Below, one piece after another: positions 645 through 28,303 of a stretch of DNA of 28,689 nt. Source of the stretch: a virus. The translations under genes and the position numbers were made by a program. The stretch is taken from positions 1 through 28,689 of IMG/VR virus record IMGVR_UViG_3300025669_000156; one strand, 5' to 3'. Position 1 is the stretch's first letter. Every line of letters begins with the position of its first letter. The notes beneath the pieces are model-generated. The model was not told the DNA's origin, searched no databases, and saw only the letters and a list, made by a program, of their open reading frames with translations.

Positions 645-2529
645 TTTGATTCCCCCAAACCATCCAGCCTTCCCGCTTCTGTCTCGCGAAAAGCTCAATC
701 TTTGGTAGTTCAGGATACATCCGCTCAATTATCTCGTATACACGGTCGGGCTTCTTGCTATGTTCCTCTCTCGGCGACTCTACCACTGAATCCGGTCGGT
801 TCTCTGGAAGTGGTGTCGGGATACTGCCCTTGGTTGCGATTAGCAATAACTCATGCCTTTGCCTAGCATAATACCCCATGCCCCAATGTTGAGTACCGAA
901 TAAAACCTTATCAGAATCGCCCCATTTATAAGCATAATCTACAACACGGCAATGACCAATGTATGCCAAAAATTTCTGAGCAGCTAGTTTCCCTAATACG
1001 ATATAGTTACTTCCGTCTTTTTTAGTAAGAATTTTAGCATCTATATCAATTTCGTCTAACCGCTGCACTAAAAACTCGTTGTCTGATCTCGTAAAGCCAT
1101 GTGTACATAAATCAATTCCGCCGGATTTTTGCAAGTAACCGTCACCGATATACCAATGAAAACAGATTAACGGGGTAAGTTGTAGATCACGCGGTACTGT
1201 CTTGATTTTATTGATATACCACCTTATATGTTGACTCGATAGTTCCTGATTAACCCTTGTCCATAAACTCCAACCTTCTCGATCCTTCCTTTCTTTATAA
1301 ACAGGCTCGAACTCACTAAATTCATCGGCCAACAATTGAGTATGCCCCAAGCTTTTAAGGTTCCACTGCAACCTAGCGTTTTTATTTCGGATTCCCTTGG
1401 CCAAACAGCCATCACCTAACATTTCTCCATCGAGAATTTGGTGTTGGCGGTCGGTAAGAGATTCGCGATTTATGACTTCTCTGTGTGGTTCAAGCTCAAT
1501 TCCTTGATTATTTAGCCAGTAACGGATCGTGCTTTCCGGTCTCCGCATTAGATTGGCTACTTCCTTGACAGCGTATCCGTTCCTATATAAATGAGCCTCT
1601 CTACTGTATCCTTGTCGGTCTGGGGTCTGTAATTCAAATTGTCCGACACTAGGGGATTCTTTAACCCAAACCATACACGTCCGATAATTAAAGCCCCACG
1701 ACTCAATAACGCGCATCGCTTCAGCCAGCTTCGGACTTGTTGCCCACATAAAAAGAATACAGTCATCGGTTGTTATATCAGAAACTTTAAGATTGCATAT
1801 ACCATCCAGTGACATGGTCGGATACTGGTTCTCTATCTTCCGATTATCTGACTGACAGTGTTCGTATTGCCACGGTGGATCGGCATAGATAACGGGATAT
1901 TGCCGTAAGGCTTCAAGCGACTCAACAGGCTTCTCGGATATTGCCTTAAGTTTTTCAACCTTCTCTTGCCGCCGTTCTTTCGTGCGAACCTGTTTGTATA
2001 CCTGATTTATCGAAGTTTCGCTCTTTTCAAGCTTCTCTTTCTGTTCAGGTGTGGCTTCTTTCTGTATCTTGTCCGCCTTCGCTATGGTGTCATGTGATAC
2101 GCCAGCGGCTTTTGCCAATTCTTTCTTGGTAGACACTTCGTCAGATTTCTGACTAAGTGTTTTTGGTCTTCCGGGTGCAGTGTTCCCATGTTCCCGCTGC
2201 TTTTCCTTAGCCTTTGCCGCTATCAGCGGTTTCAATATCAACGCCAGCTTTGACCGCTGCCATGCGTTCAAGTTACGTCTTGCAAACTGGTTCTGGATTA
2301 TCCAAACCTTAGCCGCATCCCGATCCGCAAACGCCCGCTCAACCGTCTGGAATTCAATACCGTGCTTCTGGCATATCGCATATCGGTTATGCCCGTCAAC
2401 TATGCGGTTATCCCAGACCACAAGCGCATCGCGGCAGCCTTCAGCGATAAGGCTTGCTTCCAGTTGTTCTCGTTCTTCAAAAGAAGGTATTAAGTCCTGA
2501 AACTCAGTGTCAATTAGTAGTTCTTTCAT
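637..2529 (-). CDS. ParB domain-MT-A70 adenine methyltransferase with in-frame LAGLIDADG homing endonuclease
   Basis: The product is 630 aa. The start is ATG at 2527-2529, with GGAGG 4 nt upstream. Residues ~8-65 are a ParB-like nuclease domain (IVDGHNRYAIC). A charged helical linker with an HTH-like segment (KKELAKAAGVSHDTI) follows. Residues ~210-291 are the first half of an MT-A70 N6-adenine methyltransferase with the catalytic DPPW at ~217-220 and the MVWVKE strand. At ~292-547 an unrelated block interrupts the domain. MT-A70 resumes at GMGYYARQRHELLLIA and continues to the ELFARQKREGWMVWGN C-terminus. The inserted block has an HTH (EVANLMRRPESTIRYWL) and two LAGLIDADG-type motifs (ILDGEMLGDG, CFHWYIGDGYL). 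The host protein would methylate adenine in DNA. Activity depends on whether the insert is removed or tolerated. Confidence 0.9.
   Translation of the reverse strand: MKELLIDTEFQDLIPSFEEREQLEASLIAEGCRDALVVWDNRIVDGHNRYAICQKHGIEFQTVERAFADRDAAKVWIIQNQFARRNLNAWQRSKLALILKPLIAAKAKEKQREHGNTAPGRPKTLSQKSDEVSTKKELAKAAGVSHDTIAKADKIQKEATPEQKEKLEKSETSINQVYKQVRTKERRQEKVEKLKAISEKPVESLEALRQYPVIYADPPWQYEHCQSDNRKIENQYPTMSLDGICNLKVSDITTDDCILFMWATSPKLAEAMRVIESWGFNYRTCMVWVKESPSVGQFELQTPDRQGYSREAHLYRNGYAVKEVANLMRRPESTIRYWLNNQGIELEPHREVINRESLTDRQHQILDGEMLGDGCLAKGIRNKNARLQWNLKSLGHTQLLADEFSEFEPVYKERKDREGWSLWTRVNQELSSQHIRWYINKIKTVPRDLQLTPLICFHWYIGDGYLQKSGGIDLCTHGFTRSDNEFLVQRLDEIDIDAKILTKKDGSNYIVLGKLAAQKFLAYIGHCRVVDYAYKWGDSDKVLFGTQHWGMGYYARQRHELLLIATKGSIPTPLPENRPDSVVESPREEHSKKPDRVYEIIERMYPELPKIELFARQKREGWMVWGNQSA
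889..1656 (-). mobile_element. LAGLIDADG homing endonuclease insertion inside MT-A70
   Basis: About 256 codons of LAGLIDADG_2-type homing endonuclease lie in the same frame as the methyltransferase on both sides. The edges are approximate and inferred from where MT-A70 similarity stops (MVWVKE) and resumes (GMGYYARQ). No intein block A or terminal His-Asn is visible: the block begins SPSVGQFELQ and ends FGTQHW. The 5' part contains a perfect 6-bp inverted repeat (TGTCGG...CCGACA on the minus strand, about 1613-1648), which might be part of an RNA fold. It is either an intron with a fully open reading frame or a protein-level insertion. Confidence 0.75.
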
Positions 2530-2826: not shown

Positions 2827-2900
2827 AGCCGATGATAGGAATCGAACCTATAACCTACTGGTTACAAATCAGTCGCTCTGCCTAGTTGAGCTACACCGGC
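2827..2900 (-). tRNA. tRNA-Thr (UGU)
   Basis: Read on the minus strand, this folds as a cloverleaf. The acceptor GCCGGTG pairs with CATCGGC with one G-U. The D stem is GCTC/GAGC and the T arm is TAGG-TTCGATT-CCTA. The anticodon loop TTTGTAA gives anticodon TGT. The top of the anticodon stem has one A-C mismatch. CCA is not encoded. Confidence 0.88.
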
Positions 2901-2902
2901 AA

Positions 2903-2979
2903 TGGGGCGAACGGTGGGGGTTGAACCCACGACAACCAGAGCCACAATCTGGCATTCTCCCAACTGAATTACGCCCGCC
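2903..2979 (-). tRNA. tRNA-His (GUG)
   Basis: The cloverleaf has acceptor GCGGGCG/CGTTCGC preceded by the tRNA-His-specific extra G (position -1) facing discriminator C73. The anticodon stem is CCAGA/TCTGG with loop TTGTGGC (GTG). The T arm is GTGGG-TTCAACC-CCCAC. The 3' CCA is encoded. Confidence 0.93.
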
Positions 2980-2985
2980 AAGTAA

Positions 2986-3060
2986 TGGCTGCCCCGGTAG
3001 GATTTGAACCTACAGCCATGCGATTAACAGCCGCACGCTCTACCGTTGAGCTACAGAGCA
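2986..3060 (-). tRNA. tRNA-Asn (GUU)
   Basis: The acceptor TGCTCTG/CGGGGCA has two G-U pairs. The D arm is GCTC/GAGC, the anticodon loop CTGTTAA (GTT), and the T arm GTAGG-TTCAAAT-CCTAC. The discriminator is G, as usual for Asn, and CCA is encoded. It lies 6 nt from the tRNA-His gene. Confidence 0.92.
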
Positions 3061-23640: not shown

Positions 23641-24998
23641 TCCGATACCCCCAATTCGTGAAAGCGCATGTGCGCGGCATCAAAGCCTAGTTTCTCTACC
23701 CCTTTTGGGCCACTGCGCTGCTTCCCAATAATAACCTCTGTTGTCATGTCTTTAAGGCTTTTGTCATAATACCAGTCGCCATATAGGAACATTACCAAAT
23801 CAGCGTCTTGCTCAATCGCGCCGGATTCGCGCAAGTCAGATAACTGCGGTCGCTTGTCCGGCCTTCCTTCTGGGCCACGGCTCAACTGAGACAGGGCGAT
23901 AATCGGTATATCGAACTCAACGGCCATCCGTTTAAGTTCGCGCGTTATTGAACTCATATCCTGAGTCCTGTTTTCGCTACGATTATCAGACGCCATCAAC
24001 TGGAGGTGATCCACATATACCGCATCAATCTCGTGTTTCATTTTCATGCGCCTGATTATCGACTGCATCAAACGCGGGGATAAGCTTTCTTTGAACCTTG
24101 AAACGGGATATATAGGCGCGGCTGATAATACTTCCCGCGCGTCATGGACATCGCTCCATTTTTCCGATACCAAACACCCTGATCGTAAACGCTGCAAGTC
24201 TACATTTGCAACATCGGCAATCATGCGCTCTGCAAAGGAAATCTGCGAGGTTTCTAAACAAAAAGGCAAAACGCCTTTCGGATCAGGTCGGTCAATGCAG
24301 GTATGTCGAATGTTGTTTTGCATCAGTGTACTTTTCCCCATTCCGGGCCTGGCGGCTATGATAATCAAGTCGCCTGATACATATCCCAGAGTCAGTGCAT
24401 CCAACTTTGGAAACCCCGTTGATAATCCCAAAAGCTCTCCGGGATTGTCATGCACGCGCTGTAAGTGCCTCATTGTCCTTACCATGACATCGGACATTTC
24501 TGGCGATTCGTCATCTTCCATCGTATTCAATGACAGAAGACCAGCTTCCGCGCTTGCTATCGTTTCATCAATCGGGATCGTCCTGTCTCTTGCGTCCTGA
24601 TACATCTGTGCCGATATACGCGCCGCCTTGCGTCTCTGTGCTTCAGCCCTAACCATTTCAGCGTAATATTCCACATTCGCCGCTGACGGCGTACTGTCAA
24701 TCATCTCGTCAACATATAACACACCACCAATACGCTCAAGGTCTCCTGCCCCATCAAGCGCGTGTACAACAGTCAATAAGTCAGAAGGCTGCCCCGCGTC
24801 AAACAACCCCATAATCGCGCGATATATCTTTATGTGCGCCTCGCGATAGAACTGCTCTGCTCCGTTTATGCCGAGAACGGCCACCACGTCAGCTATAGCT
24901 TGATTGCTTTCGTTCCCTAGCATCATCGCGCCGAGAACCGCTCTCTCAGCGTCTATATTCATCGACGGCACTCTATCGAGGTCAAGCCCGATACTCAT
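23631..24998 (-). CDS. dnaB: Replicative DNA helicase, DnaB family
   Basis: The product is 455 aa, a full-length DnaB. The N-terminal primase-interacting domain (NIDAERAVLGAMML, FYREAHIKIYRAI) spans ~15-110. A linker helix leads to the RecA-fold ATPase: RPGMGKST Walker A (217-224), the YVDHLQL Walker B region (328-334), IIALSQLSRGPEGRPDKRPQ, LRESGAIEQDADLVMFLY and the C-terminal GKQRSGPKG. The hexamer unwinds DNA at the phage fork and loads with primase. The start ATG overlaps the upstream stop (ATGA). Unlike many phage dnaB genes, this copy has no intein; the intein in this window is in the neighbouring helicase. Confidence 0.96.
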   Translation of the reverse strand: MSIGLDLDRVPSMNIDAERAVLGAMMLGNESNQAIADVVAVLGINGAEQFYREAHIKIYRAIMGLFDAGQPSDLLTVVHALDGAGDLERIGGVLYVDEMIDSTPSAANVEYYAEMVRAEAQRRKAARISAQMYQDARDRTIPIDETIASAEAGLLSLNTMEDDESPEMSDVMVRTMRHLQRVHDNPGELLGLSTGFPKLDALTLGYVSGDLIIIAARPGMGKSTLMQNNIRHTCIDRPDPKGVLPFCLETSQISFAERMIADVANVDLQRLRSGCLVSEKWSDVHDAREVLSAAPIYPVSRFKESLSPRLMQSIIRRMKMKHEIDAVYVDHLQLMASDNRSENRTQDMSSITRELKRMAVEFDIPIIALSQLSRGPEGRPDKRPQLSDLRESGAIEQDADLVMFLYGDWYYDKSLKDMTTEVIIGKQRSGPKGVEKLGFDAAHMRFHELGVSEWR

Positions 24999-27900
24999 TT
25001 CACTACCCCCGTTGCGCTCGACTTGACATCGCTATTAAACAAGGAATTCTGCCTATTGTCTATTTCGGCAGCTTGAAGATTCCTGAGCGCAACATCAAAA
25101 TACTCCCGCTTGAGTTCGATACCCACGAAGCGGCGACCCATCTTGATTGACTGATACCCCTCACTCCCAATCCCCGCAAATGGTGATAATACTACATCGC
25201 CCGGATTCGAGTATAGCCTGAGCAAATCCCGGATCGTGTCAAGCTGTAATGCCGATATGTGCCGTTCATCGTTTTCAGGTTTAATCGTATTTAATGTGTT
25301 TGTCTGGCGTATGTGCCACCATACAGGTGATGCTACTTTCGCCCATTCATCGACGGGAAAGTCGTTGTCGGTATGGGTTATGCGTTCTAAGTTTTCTCCG
25401 GGCTTCCGCATTATCAAAACGTAGTCAGGCATTCCAACACGACATCGGCCTGAGTCCTTCTTCAACTGCCGATGTAGCAAAACATGGGTTTTCGTCCTCA
25501 CGACTTCAATCACCGGACTTTTCCAAATAGTAATCCTTGAGTAGTAGATAAATCCGACATCCTGCATTACTTGCCGCAGCATAGCGGGGAAGTCCTTTAA
25601 TCCAACATAATTATCGCGCCCTAGCATAGCCGGTATGTCCATGCAATGCAGAGCTACTGACCGACCGGGCATCATCACTCGATATAATTCACTTGCTAGA
25701 AACTTAAAATTGACCACGAATTCATCTTCGTCTGTCACGTTTGCCATATCTCTTTTAGAATCTGAGAAAACGTATAATGACGCAAACGGCGGAGAGAAGA
25801 TGGAAAAGTGTATTGACTCATCGGCAATAGTTTTAATCTCTTCCACGCAGTCACCGTAAATCATCTTCCAGCCGCCCTGCTCTTTCACTGTGCTGATATA
25901 CTGTTCATCCATCTGGCTCTTATCCTTTCCCAGTTCCTTTCTGAAATGCCTCAACCCGCTTGCTACTGCTTGCTCAAACATCTCTTTGAATCTCGCTTCC
26001 TTGCCTTCGATATTCTGCTTGATGCTGATTTCCCTATCCGCTGTCACGATATGCACATCAACGGGCTTCTCCTGTCCGAATCGCCAGCATCGACGAGTCG
26101 CCTGATAGAACTGCTCAAACGAATCAGAAAGGCCGACGAAAGCCATATTGTAACATATCTGCCAATTCATCCCAAATCCGGCTATGCTCGGCTTCGTTAC
26201 CAGCCGCTTGATCTCGCCAGTAGCGAAAGCTTCCAACGCCCACTCCTTATGCTCTGACTTATCCGACCCCTTCACTTCCACCGCGCCGTCAATGGCTTCT
26301 GTCAGATATTTCGATTCATCGTTTAGGTTACACCAGATGACCCATGACTCATCCGCTGGCCGCTGATTGATTATATCCGCTGTATAGTCAGTCCGGTCTC
26401 TAATCGTGTCACGCTTTGCCGACCTGCGCTCATTCAAAGTCAACGCTGGCATGTGGAAAAGCATATCTGACGGCGGCTCGGTTGACTCAATAACGTGTTC
26501 GATATATCGGATCGCCGGTAGCTGAAAGAGCTTATTATCATACCCATACTGACCCGGAGAACGCATCAGTATCCCCCACGTCGCCAGCCATCGCCAGAAT
26601 TCATCTTGCGCATGACCCTTCAACCGCCACGATGCGGAATGACTGGCATCGTTGACAAAGAATTTCGCCAGCATTTCAGAGTATGAACAGATGTTGAGAA
26701 ACTCTGCATGGTTTCCAAGCTCCATGTAATCGTTGGGGGCCGGAGTCGCTGTGCAACAGAGCTTATATGGTATGTCTGCCGCCCCTTCCGTTATCGCTTG
26801 CCGAAACTTCCCAGAAAAGCTTTTGAGAATACTCGACTCGTCTAACACGATCCCCGAGAACTGCATTAAATCGAACTTGTGCAACATCTCATAATTCGTG
26901 ATGTTGACCCCGTCAGTCGTCCCCGACTGCTCTCGGCAGATGTTGACTTCAATATCAAACTTCTGACCTTCACGCACGGTCTGCTTTGATACTGCCAGCG
27001 GAGCGAATATCAACACCGGAGCGTCAGTATGTTCGATAACATGACGCGCCCATTCAAGTTGGATTGGCGTGTTATGCGTAACTATAAAATGCTCAGCAAC
27101 ATAGCTTTGGTCTGGACTATCCACTGATATACATATAGTCTTTTGCTGGCCTTCATATTCAATCCTGTCTATCCAACGGCCATTATCTCTGGGATTAGGG
27201 TTCCACTTCTTAGCCTTATACTCGACCCAGAATGGATTATATGTTTTCAAAGAAAACGTTACCGTATAGCAATCTCTATGCCGCTTTCCTTGAAACATTC
27301 CCTTTTTCATGCTCAACGTAGGAATGCCACCTAATGATCTGACCAAAAACATGACATTATTGGCTAGTTGCTTACTAACAGTATAGTATTGGCTTGTGCC
27401 ATAATCCATTATATATCCGTCAGTATCCATCAGCCCTTGCAGCAGCATGATTCTGAATTCTGTTGAAGAGTGCACCAGGAAATCATTTGGAATAAACTTC
27501 TCATGGCTCAATTTGCCATACAATCCTAAATCAATGAATTCCTGTCGGAACGGATGCCTTTTATTCCCAGTACAGCCAGAGTGTATTCTATAATCATATA
27601 AGCTTCCTTTCTTTTTGATGAGTGCCATATCATACGGTAGCTCACATCTAACTCTTTGGAGAATACTCTGGTCTGCACTGGAAATACAAATATTTCCTTT
27701 CAAATATCCATCCCCTAGCAATGCACCCATTACATAAGGGGAAATCAGGCCATCATAATAACCGGCAAAGGCAACTGGATTCACGACGGGAATATCATAA
27801 TTTCTTGATTTGCCATCTGCACCGTATCTTAGATTCCCGCATTTCAATAAATCATCCGTAGACATAACTCTCCACTTCTTGTTTCTCTGTCTATCATTGT

Positions 27901-28303
27901 TTGTTCTTACAATGTGAAGATGATCAATATCTACTACATAAGATACTCCATCACTAAAATGGAATCGATACGTGGCAAGTTCCTGCTTAGGATAAACACC
28001 TGACACATTATATGCTTTGCCATCACTGGCAATCACCTTGCATCCAACAGTCAGGCTTTCTATGTTTACATACCCAGTGGGAGTTAATATCTGGCTTCCA
28101 TATGGCTGACCTTTTCCTGTACCGCAATCGAGAAATAACGCCGCTCTTCCCTTTCTTAACGCCCATTTGAGTATGTCGCTCTGGAACTCATAGAGCATGG
28201 GGTTAATCTCTAGTGACGGTTCAAATCCACTATCGACTCTATGCTGTATTTTATTATTCAGGAATTCAAGATAACTGTCATTTCTCTCCGGTATTGCACT
28301 CAT
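24995..28303 (-). CDS. SNF2-type helicase-DNA methyltransferase fusion with intein
   Basis: The product is 1102 aa. The start is ATG after GGGGGG, overlapping the upstream stop. Residues 1-64 and 412-~800 form an SF2/SNF2 ATPase: FLDCGTGK|T (Walker A, split by an intein), VLDESS (486-491, Walker B), CTATPAPNDY (517-526), and FYQATRRCWRFGQEKP (732-747, motif VI with arginine fingers). Residues ~810-1102 are a DNA methyltransferase with IYGDCVEEI, FSPPF (836-840, of the SPPY/F kind typical of N4-cytosine enzymes) and SPFAGIGSEG (1040-1049, AdoMet site). Such fusions in phages probably couple translocation on DNA to base methylation. The intein occupies 65-411. Without the intein the protein would be 755 aa. 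Confidence 0.93.
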   Translation of the reverse strand: MSAIPERNDSYLEFLNNKIQHRVDSGFEPSLEINPMLYEFQSDILKWALRKGRAALFLDCGTGKGQPYGSQILTPTGYVNIESLTVGCKVIASDGKAYNVSGVYPKQELATYRFHFSDGVSYVVDIDHLHIVRTNNDRQRNKKWRVMSTDDLLKCGNLRYGADGKSRNYDIPVVNPVAFAGYYDGLISPYVMGALLGDGYLKGNICISSADQSILQRVRCELPYDMALIKKKGSLYDYRIHSGCTGNKRHPFRQEFIDLGLYGKLSHEKFIPNDFLVHSSTEFRIMLLQGLMDTDGYIMDYGTSQYYTVSKQLANNVMFLVRSLGGIPTLSMKKGMFQGKRHRDCYTVTFSLKTYNPFWVEYKAKKWNPNPRDNGRWIDRIEYEGQQKTICISVDSPDQSYVAEHFIVTHNTPIQLEWARHVIEHTDAPVLIFAPLAVSKQTVREGQKFDIEVNICREQSGTTDGVNITNYEMLHKFDLMQFSGIVLDESSILKSFSGKFRQAITEGAADIPYKLCCTATPAPNDYMELGNHAEFLNICSYSEMLAKFFVNDASHSASWRLKGHAQDEFWRWLATWGILMRSPGQYGYDNKLFQLPAIRYIEHVIESTEPPSDMLFHMPALTLNERRSAKRDTIRDRTDYTADIINQRPADESWVIWCNLNDESKYLTEAIDGAVEVKGSDKSEHKEWALEAFATGEIKRLVTKPSIAGFGMNWQICYNMAFVGLSDSFEQFYQATRRCWRFGQEKPVDVHIVTADREISIKQNIEGKEARFKEMFEQAVASGLRHFRKELGKDKSQMDEQYISTVKEQGGWKMIYGDCVEEIKTIADESIHFSIFSPPFASLYVFSDSKRDMANVTDEDEFVVNFKFLASELYRVMMPGRSVALHCMDIPAMLGRDNYVGLKDFPAMLRQVMQDVGFIYYSRITIWKSPVIEVVRTKTHVLLHRQLKKDSGRCRVGMPDYVLIMRKPGENLERITHTDNDFPVDEWAKVASPVWWHIRQTNTLNTIKPENDERHISALQLDTIRDLLRLYSNPGDVVLSPFAGIGSEGYQSIKMGRRFVGIELKREYFDVALRNLQAAEIDNRQNSLFNSDVKSSATGVVK
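27071..28111 (-). mobile_element. Intein with LAGLIDADG endonuclease, class-3-like, Gly at position 1
   Basis: The intein is 347 residues and interrupts the Walker A motif as GTGK|intein|TP. It opens GQPYGSQILTPTGYVNIESL, with Gly instead of Cys/Ser at position 1. It has a block B-like segment (VSYVVDIDHLHIV), two LAGLIDADG motifs (VMGALLGDGY at 127-136, LQGLMDTDGY at 224-233), a block F-like TICISVDSPDQSYVAEHFI with Cys at 327, and ends VTHN before Thr+1. Cys in block F and Thr before the final His-Asn match class 3 inteins, which use the block F Cys as first nucleophile. The usual block B Trp appears to be His (DHLHIV). Confidence 0.88.

Follow-up and report, generated by a model that had tools for sequence, protein, structure and literature searches.

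An HTH-LAGLIDADG endonuclease in frame within a viral MT-A70 methyltransferase gene, with no recognisable intron or intein

When a homing endonuclease lies within a gene, the usual explanation is a self-splicing intron or intein that conceals the insertion. A literature search led us to PMC11855218 and, through the works cited there, to a paper on mycobacteriophage Taj and eight relatives, whose methylase contains a LAGLIDADG endonuclease that lies outside the intein and is predicted to form a domain of its own (PMC9957025). We scanned the Taj gp79 sequence and found a single LAGLIDADG_1 match (PF00961, about 100 aa) within the N6_N4_Mtase domain (PF01555), just after the TDPPYN motif. The locus described here lies on a linear viral record of 28,689 bases, the whole of which is referred to below as the window. 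It resembles Taj gp79: in both, a LAGLIDADG endonuclease is read in frame with a phage methyltransferase, there is no HINT domain and no detectable intron, and the endonuclease is predicted to form its own domain. In the window, however, a helix-turn-helix (HTH) and a two-motif LAGLIDADG_2 domain (PF03161) are inserted into PF05063, at the loop between VWVK and GMGYY. The site differs as well as the endonuclease family and the host gene class, so that the two insertions do not appear homologous; because the endonuclease families and methyltransferase classes differ, they are, judged by sequence comparison, the same kind of arrangement of independent origin.

The ShiLan domain (PMC11855218) is likewise a stop-free insertion in a phage methylase that lacks a splicing element and behaves as a mobile element. 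Its endonuclease, however, is an HNH enzyme that has its own GTG and TAA and is encoded in a different frame, whereas that of the window is in the methylase frame and has neither a start nor a stop of its own. Free-standing viral HTH-LAGLIDADG_2 endonucleases (loci L095-L118, phiNIT1 orf197b and that of Acinetobacter phage IME285) show the domain order and conserved residues seen in the window, but they are separate genes, while the one in the window is fused into another protein. I-WcaI and I-SceI, which ranked top when a model of the insert was searched with Foldseek and were also the top sequence matches in the PDB, share the two-motif LAGLIDADG fold but are intron-encoded and only about 20% identical to the insert. 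The MT-A70 enzymes of the phage clade, METTL3 and Tetrahymena MTA1 share invariant residues and the predicted fold with the window protein but are free of the insert.

The gene and its insertion site

The gene, of which one copy was found in the window, is an ORF of 641 aa plus a stop codon on the minus strand (637-2562), as are all parts of it given below; the original prediction had named no strand. It comprises a ParB-like N-terminal part (aa 28-209, 1936-2481; phrog_4715, E 2e-11), the first half of MT-A70 (aa 220-302, 1657-1905; phrog_359/15877, PF05063), the insert (aa 303-560, 883-1656) and the second half of MT-A70 (aa 561-641, 640-882), which begins GMGYYARQRHELLL and matches PF05063 positions 93-172. 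The first half contains DPPW at aa 228-231 and ends in VWVKE at the junction with the insert, and all invariant residues are kept in both halves. The DPPW motif and the conserved residues on either side of the insert place the protein in the MT-A70 family. PF05063 matches thus flank a PF03161 match, and, as originally predicted, an in-frame LAGLIDADG endonuclease does lie inside an MT-A70 gene.

Two other features of the window were recorded. A cluster of three tRNAs (Thr, His, Asn) is located at 2827-3060 on the minus strand, just upstream of the methyltransferase gene. On the same strand, a 166-aa ORF at 5079-5579 matches the second half of N6_N4_Mtase alone (PF01555 positions 93-220) and is possibly a truncated or split methyltransferase.

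To define the insert, viral MT-A70 loci free of it were gathered by joined-flank and DNA-pattern searches. The loop between W-x-K and G-M/L-G was exactly three residues long in 116 of the 118 clade homologues with a readable loop, and was 6 and 10 residues long in the two exceptions. In the window it measures 259 residues, so that the net gain is exactly 256 codons (768 nt), which equals the length of the segment 889-1656 that had been proposed from the sequence. A near empty allele (L093) reads FNYRTCMVWVKDAIGMGYYARQRHELLLIA, and the window reads FNYRTCMVWVKE-insert-GMGYYARQRHELLLIA. Since two of the three loop residues may fall on either side, the alignment with insert-free homologues fixes the edges to within two codons (883-1656 or 889-1656); in the longer version, two edge codons belong to the host loop. 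The predicted placement between the VWVK strand and GMGYY is correct. Because the loop also varies in length among other phage MT-A70s and in MTA1, where it is somewhat longer than three residues, this position tolerates changes in length. Its equivalence to the METTL14-contacting loop of METTL3 is plausible.

No direct repeats of at least 7 nt are shared by the two edges. The G+C content of the insert is 41%, compared with 44% and 51% in the methyltransferase halves, which is in keeping with a foreign origin. A likeness between the N-terminal linker and the sequence following the empty site, a feature reported for the ShiLan domain, was attributed to chance, because shuffled sequences do as well in 5% of cases and the alignment that scores best is out of register.

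A further MT-A70 gene bearing such an insert was seen neither in the roughly 200 viral loci read nor in the annotated phages sampled, and no close relative of the full protein or of the insert was confirmed in viral and genome contig collections. In annotated phages, at least 80% of the MT-A70 domain lay in one place in 347 of the 350 matched records; the 60 MT-A70 records listed were all single pieces, that of Mosig being cut by the record edge. The occurrence of the insert in a single metagenomic record with no second copy found would be expected of a chimeric contig in which misassembly joined an endonuclease into the gene. However, misassembly is very unlikely to place two in-frame junctions in one three-residue loop, with a net length divisible by three and with the start and stop of the endonuclease lost, and we consider this origin extremely improbable.

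The endonuclease and the integrity of the fused protein

The LAGLIDADG_2 domain (aa 375-528, 979-1440) matches PF03161 with 72-75 bits, against a curated cut-off of 25 bits (E = 7e-20 in the whole protein and 1e-20 with the insert alone). It contains two LAGLIDADG motifs, LDGEMLGDG (1408-1434) and CFHWYIGDG (1138-1164), with catalytic-type Asp384 and Asp474, respectively, both of which are invariant across 20 relatives. Assignment to the LAGLIDADG_2 family is supported by the profile score, the two acidic LAGLIDADG helices and the predicted fold. Ahead of this domain, an HTH (aa 324-352, 1507-1593) was matched by PF13936 and PF13384 below their cut-offs; its helices are present in the model, and the free-standing relatives also have an HTH. 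The module is bounded by an N-terminal linker (aa 303-317, 1612-1656; SPSVGQFELQTPDRQ), modelled with low confidence, and a C-terminal linker (aa 549-560, 883-918; DSDKVLFGTQHW), in which pLDDT is below 50 from aa 553. AlphaFold modelling of the insert with its relatives gave a mean pLDDT of 86, mostly above 90 in the core and below 50 in both linkers.

A two-sequence profile search recovered relatives of the endonuclease at 24 viral loci, all of them separate ORFs. Most have one or more HTHs ahead of the LAGLIDADG domain, and they either stop at or soon after a YKW motif or continue into a tail of their own. Among annotated phages the best relative was phiNIT1 orf197b (34% identity). The insert keeps 20 of the 21 positions conserved at 85% or more, including both catalytic-type Asp residues, and no convincing MT-A70-like motif was found near the free-standing relatives. 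Because these relatives are separate ORFs of the same layout, the insert is seen to hold a complete endonuclease of the free-standing type (aa ~318-548), flanked by linkers of about 15 and 12 residues.

Across the insert the coding frame contains no stop codon, compared with 13 and 27 in the other two forward frames, and the probability of 256 stop-free codons arising by chance at its base composition is about 1e-8. Up to aa 339 the insert has no in-frame ATG, GTG or TTG, which means that the complete endonuclease can be produced only together with the methyltransferase. When 36 insert-free homologues were aligned with it, the methyltransferase proved to keep, in both of its halves, every one of the 28 invariant positions and of the 50 that are conserved at 90% or more.

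The endonuclease and methyltransferase parts were modelled on separate alignments because their combined rows misaligned. In the model of aa 205-641 built with methyltransferase rows only, the strands of the methyltransferase were well predicted, while the insert was of low confidence because no alignment row covered it. Foldseek matched this model to METTL3 and MTA1 chains, which have about 200 residues, in alignments spanning about 422 columns, indicating that a METTL3/MTA1-like fold was recovered across both halves.

One alternative is that the insertion inactivated the methyltransferase, leaving the endonuclease in a dispensable gene whose open frame and intact residues merely reflect recency. 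Orphan methylases of phages come and go and can be dispensable (PMC9957025), the insertion loop lies near the active-site side of a compact domain, and a frame could remain open by chance for a short time. The insert-bearing allele is known from one sequence, so that selection on the fused protein is not measurable and a recent insertion would look equally intact. However, an insertion that breaks a gene needs neither two in-frame junctions without a stop nor an endonuclease deprived of its start and stop. Every conserved residue downstream is also preserved, and the methyltransferase fold is predicted to re-form around the insert. We therefore regard inactivation as rather unlikely.

The endonuclease might instead have been recruited as a working part of the enzyme, where it would provide target recognition or restriction in a modification system made of one chain. 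The loop lies beside the catalytic pocket, the insert supplies an HTH and a DNA-binding saddle, and a one-peptide restriction-modification system has been suggested for Taj (PMC9957025). Yet no LAGLIDADG enzyme is known from a restriction-modification system, and the sites that these enzymes recognise are long (PMC9957025). The insert is also unique among the roughly 200 viral MT-A70 loci read, and we regard such recruitment as highly improbable.

Splicing elements

The original prediction had offered three readings of the insert: a group I intron, an unusual intein, and a protein insertion without a HINT domain that the enzyme tolerates. The third is supported by our analysis, but neither the intron nor the intein is.

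Consistent with the claimed absence of intein splicing blocks, neither Pfam nor NCBIfam detected HINT blocks in the insert or in the ORF. As a control, the NCBIfam model TIGR01445 detected the N-terminal intein region of E. coli phage AN_ECEAS with 33 bits. The insert has no block A nucleophile and no terminal His-Asn, ending in GTQHW, and the residue that follows is Gly561 in place of a +1 Cys, Ser or Thr. An intein, or another protein-level excision without recognisable HINT blocks, would fit an in-frame insertion at a conserved site, and Ser303 could act as the nucleophile. However, a HINT domain would not fit into the roughly 27 residues left outside the endonuclease, and an insert with plain intein features is visible elsewhere in the window. 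Taken with the ends described above, this leaves protein splicing with next to no probability.

That other insert comprises 347 aa (27071-28111, minus strand) within the ORF at 24995-28303, and it sits in the Walker A motif (CGTGK|...|T) of a SNF2-type helicase that is fused to an N6_N4 methyltransferase. Its end reads IVTHN|T and it has a LAGLIDADG_3 match, but its first residue is Gly (GQPYGSQILTPTGY) and not Cys, Ser or Ala. It looks like a genuine intein and illustrates how an intein appears in the same virus. In AN_ECEAS (L004, PP944860.1, 1688-3200), a helicase carries an intein N part (CLTGDTMITT, TIGR01445) and C part (VAHN|C) that share one frame but are separated by stops, and between them lies a LAGLIDADG ORF that uses a different frame; this locus has the appearance of a split intein in which an endonuclease gene is nested.

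Searches with Infernal and Rfam gave no intron match at an E-value of 5 (positions 500-2700) or 10 (870-1690); the sole Rfam match on the insert, a snoRNA on the opposite strand, was taken as a chance match. Rfam silence alone is weak evidence on a diverged core, because RF00028 scored the likely intron of phiNIT1, our control, at 19 bits only. In that phage (L002, 2277-4047), a DNA polymerase gene is in two pieces with LAGLIDADG and HNH genes between them, and a weak RF00028 match overlaps the end of the LAGLIDADG ORF.

A group I intron would have to have a strongly diverged core overlapping the endonuclease coding sequence, with the ORF open through both junctions. In its favor, the closest annotated relative of the endonuclease, phiNIT1 orf197b, is the LAGLIDADG gene between the polymerase pieces, and the junction choice CCT|AGT ... 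TGG|GGC gives group I-like end bases and restores an in-frame ESP loop of the usual length. On the other hand, only about 48 and 36 nt (about 84 nt in total) lie outside the endonuclease module, leaving no room for a group I core. The 789 nt folded showed no excess of RNA structure over shuffled sequences (z = -0.76), no P7-type GACTA/TAGTC strings were found, and relatives of the endonuclease are encoded at many loci without an intron. Together with the absence of an Rfam match, these observations make an intron very unlikely.

Proposed mechanism and significance

We consider it probable that an HTH-LAGLIDADG_2 homing endonuclease gene has been fused in frame into a permissive MT-A70 loop and is not spliced out. 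A gene of the free-standing type would have inserted at the short loop that separates the VWVK strand from GMGYY and, having lost its start and stop codons, would now be read straight through in the methyltransferase frame. The product would most likely be one chain of 641 aa, with the endonuclease as a domain of its own on two flexible linkers and the methyltransferase folding around it. We infer that neither the RNA nor the protein is spliced, that the methyltransferase and the endonuclease both stay active and that the latter is directed at its own empty site. The insert would spread as other homing endonucleases do: the cutting domain would cut MT-A70 alleles that lack it across the insertion site, and the break would be repaired from the occupied copy. 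For a stable two-enzyme chain with both parts working unspliced, in which the endonuclease spreads without a splicing element and is protected only by its choice of a permissive loop, we see about even chances.

Given the independent cases of the window and Taj gp79, our data suggest that a length-tolerant protein loop can replace splicing. If such a chain exists, the two would represent a third way, alongside introns and inteins, for selfish endonucleases to spare the host gene, and one reached independently in unrelated methyltransferase classes. This view predicts a stable full-length protein of 641 aa that retains methylation activity, and it marks a loop in MT-A70 enzymes at which an entire additional domain may be accommodated. 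With Taj gp79 published earlier, the locus would be the second case, of separate origin, of a poorly known means by which selfish genes can reside within other genes.
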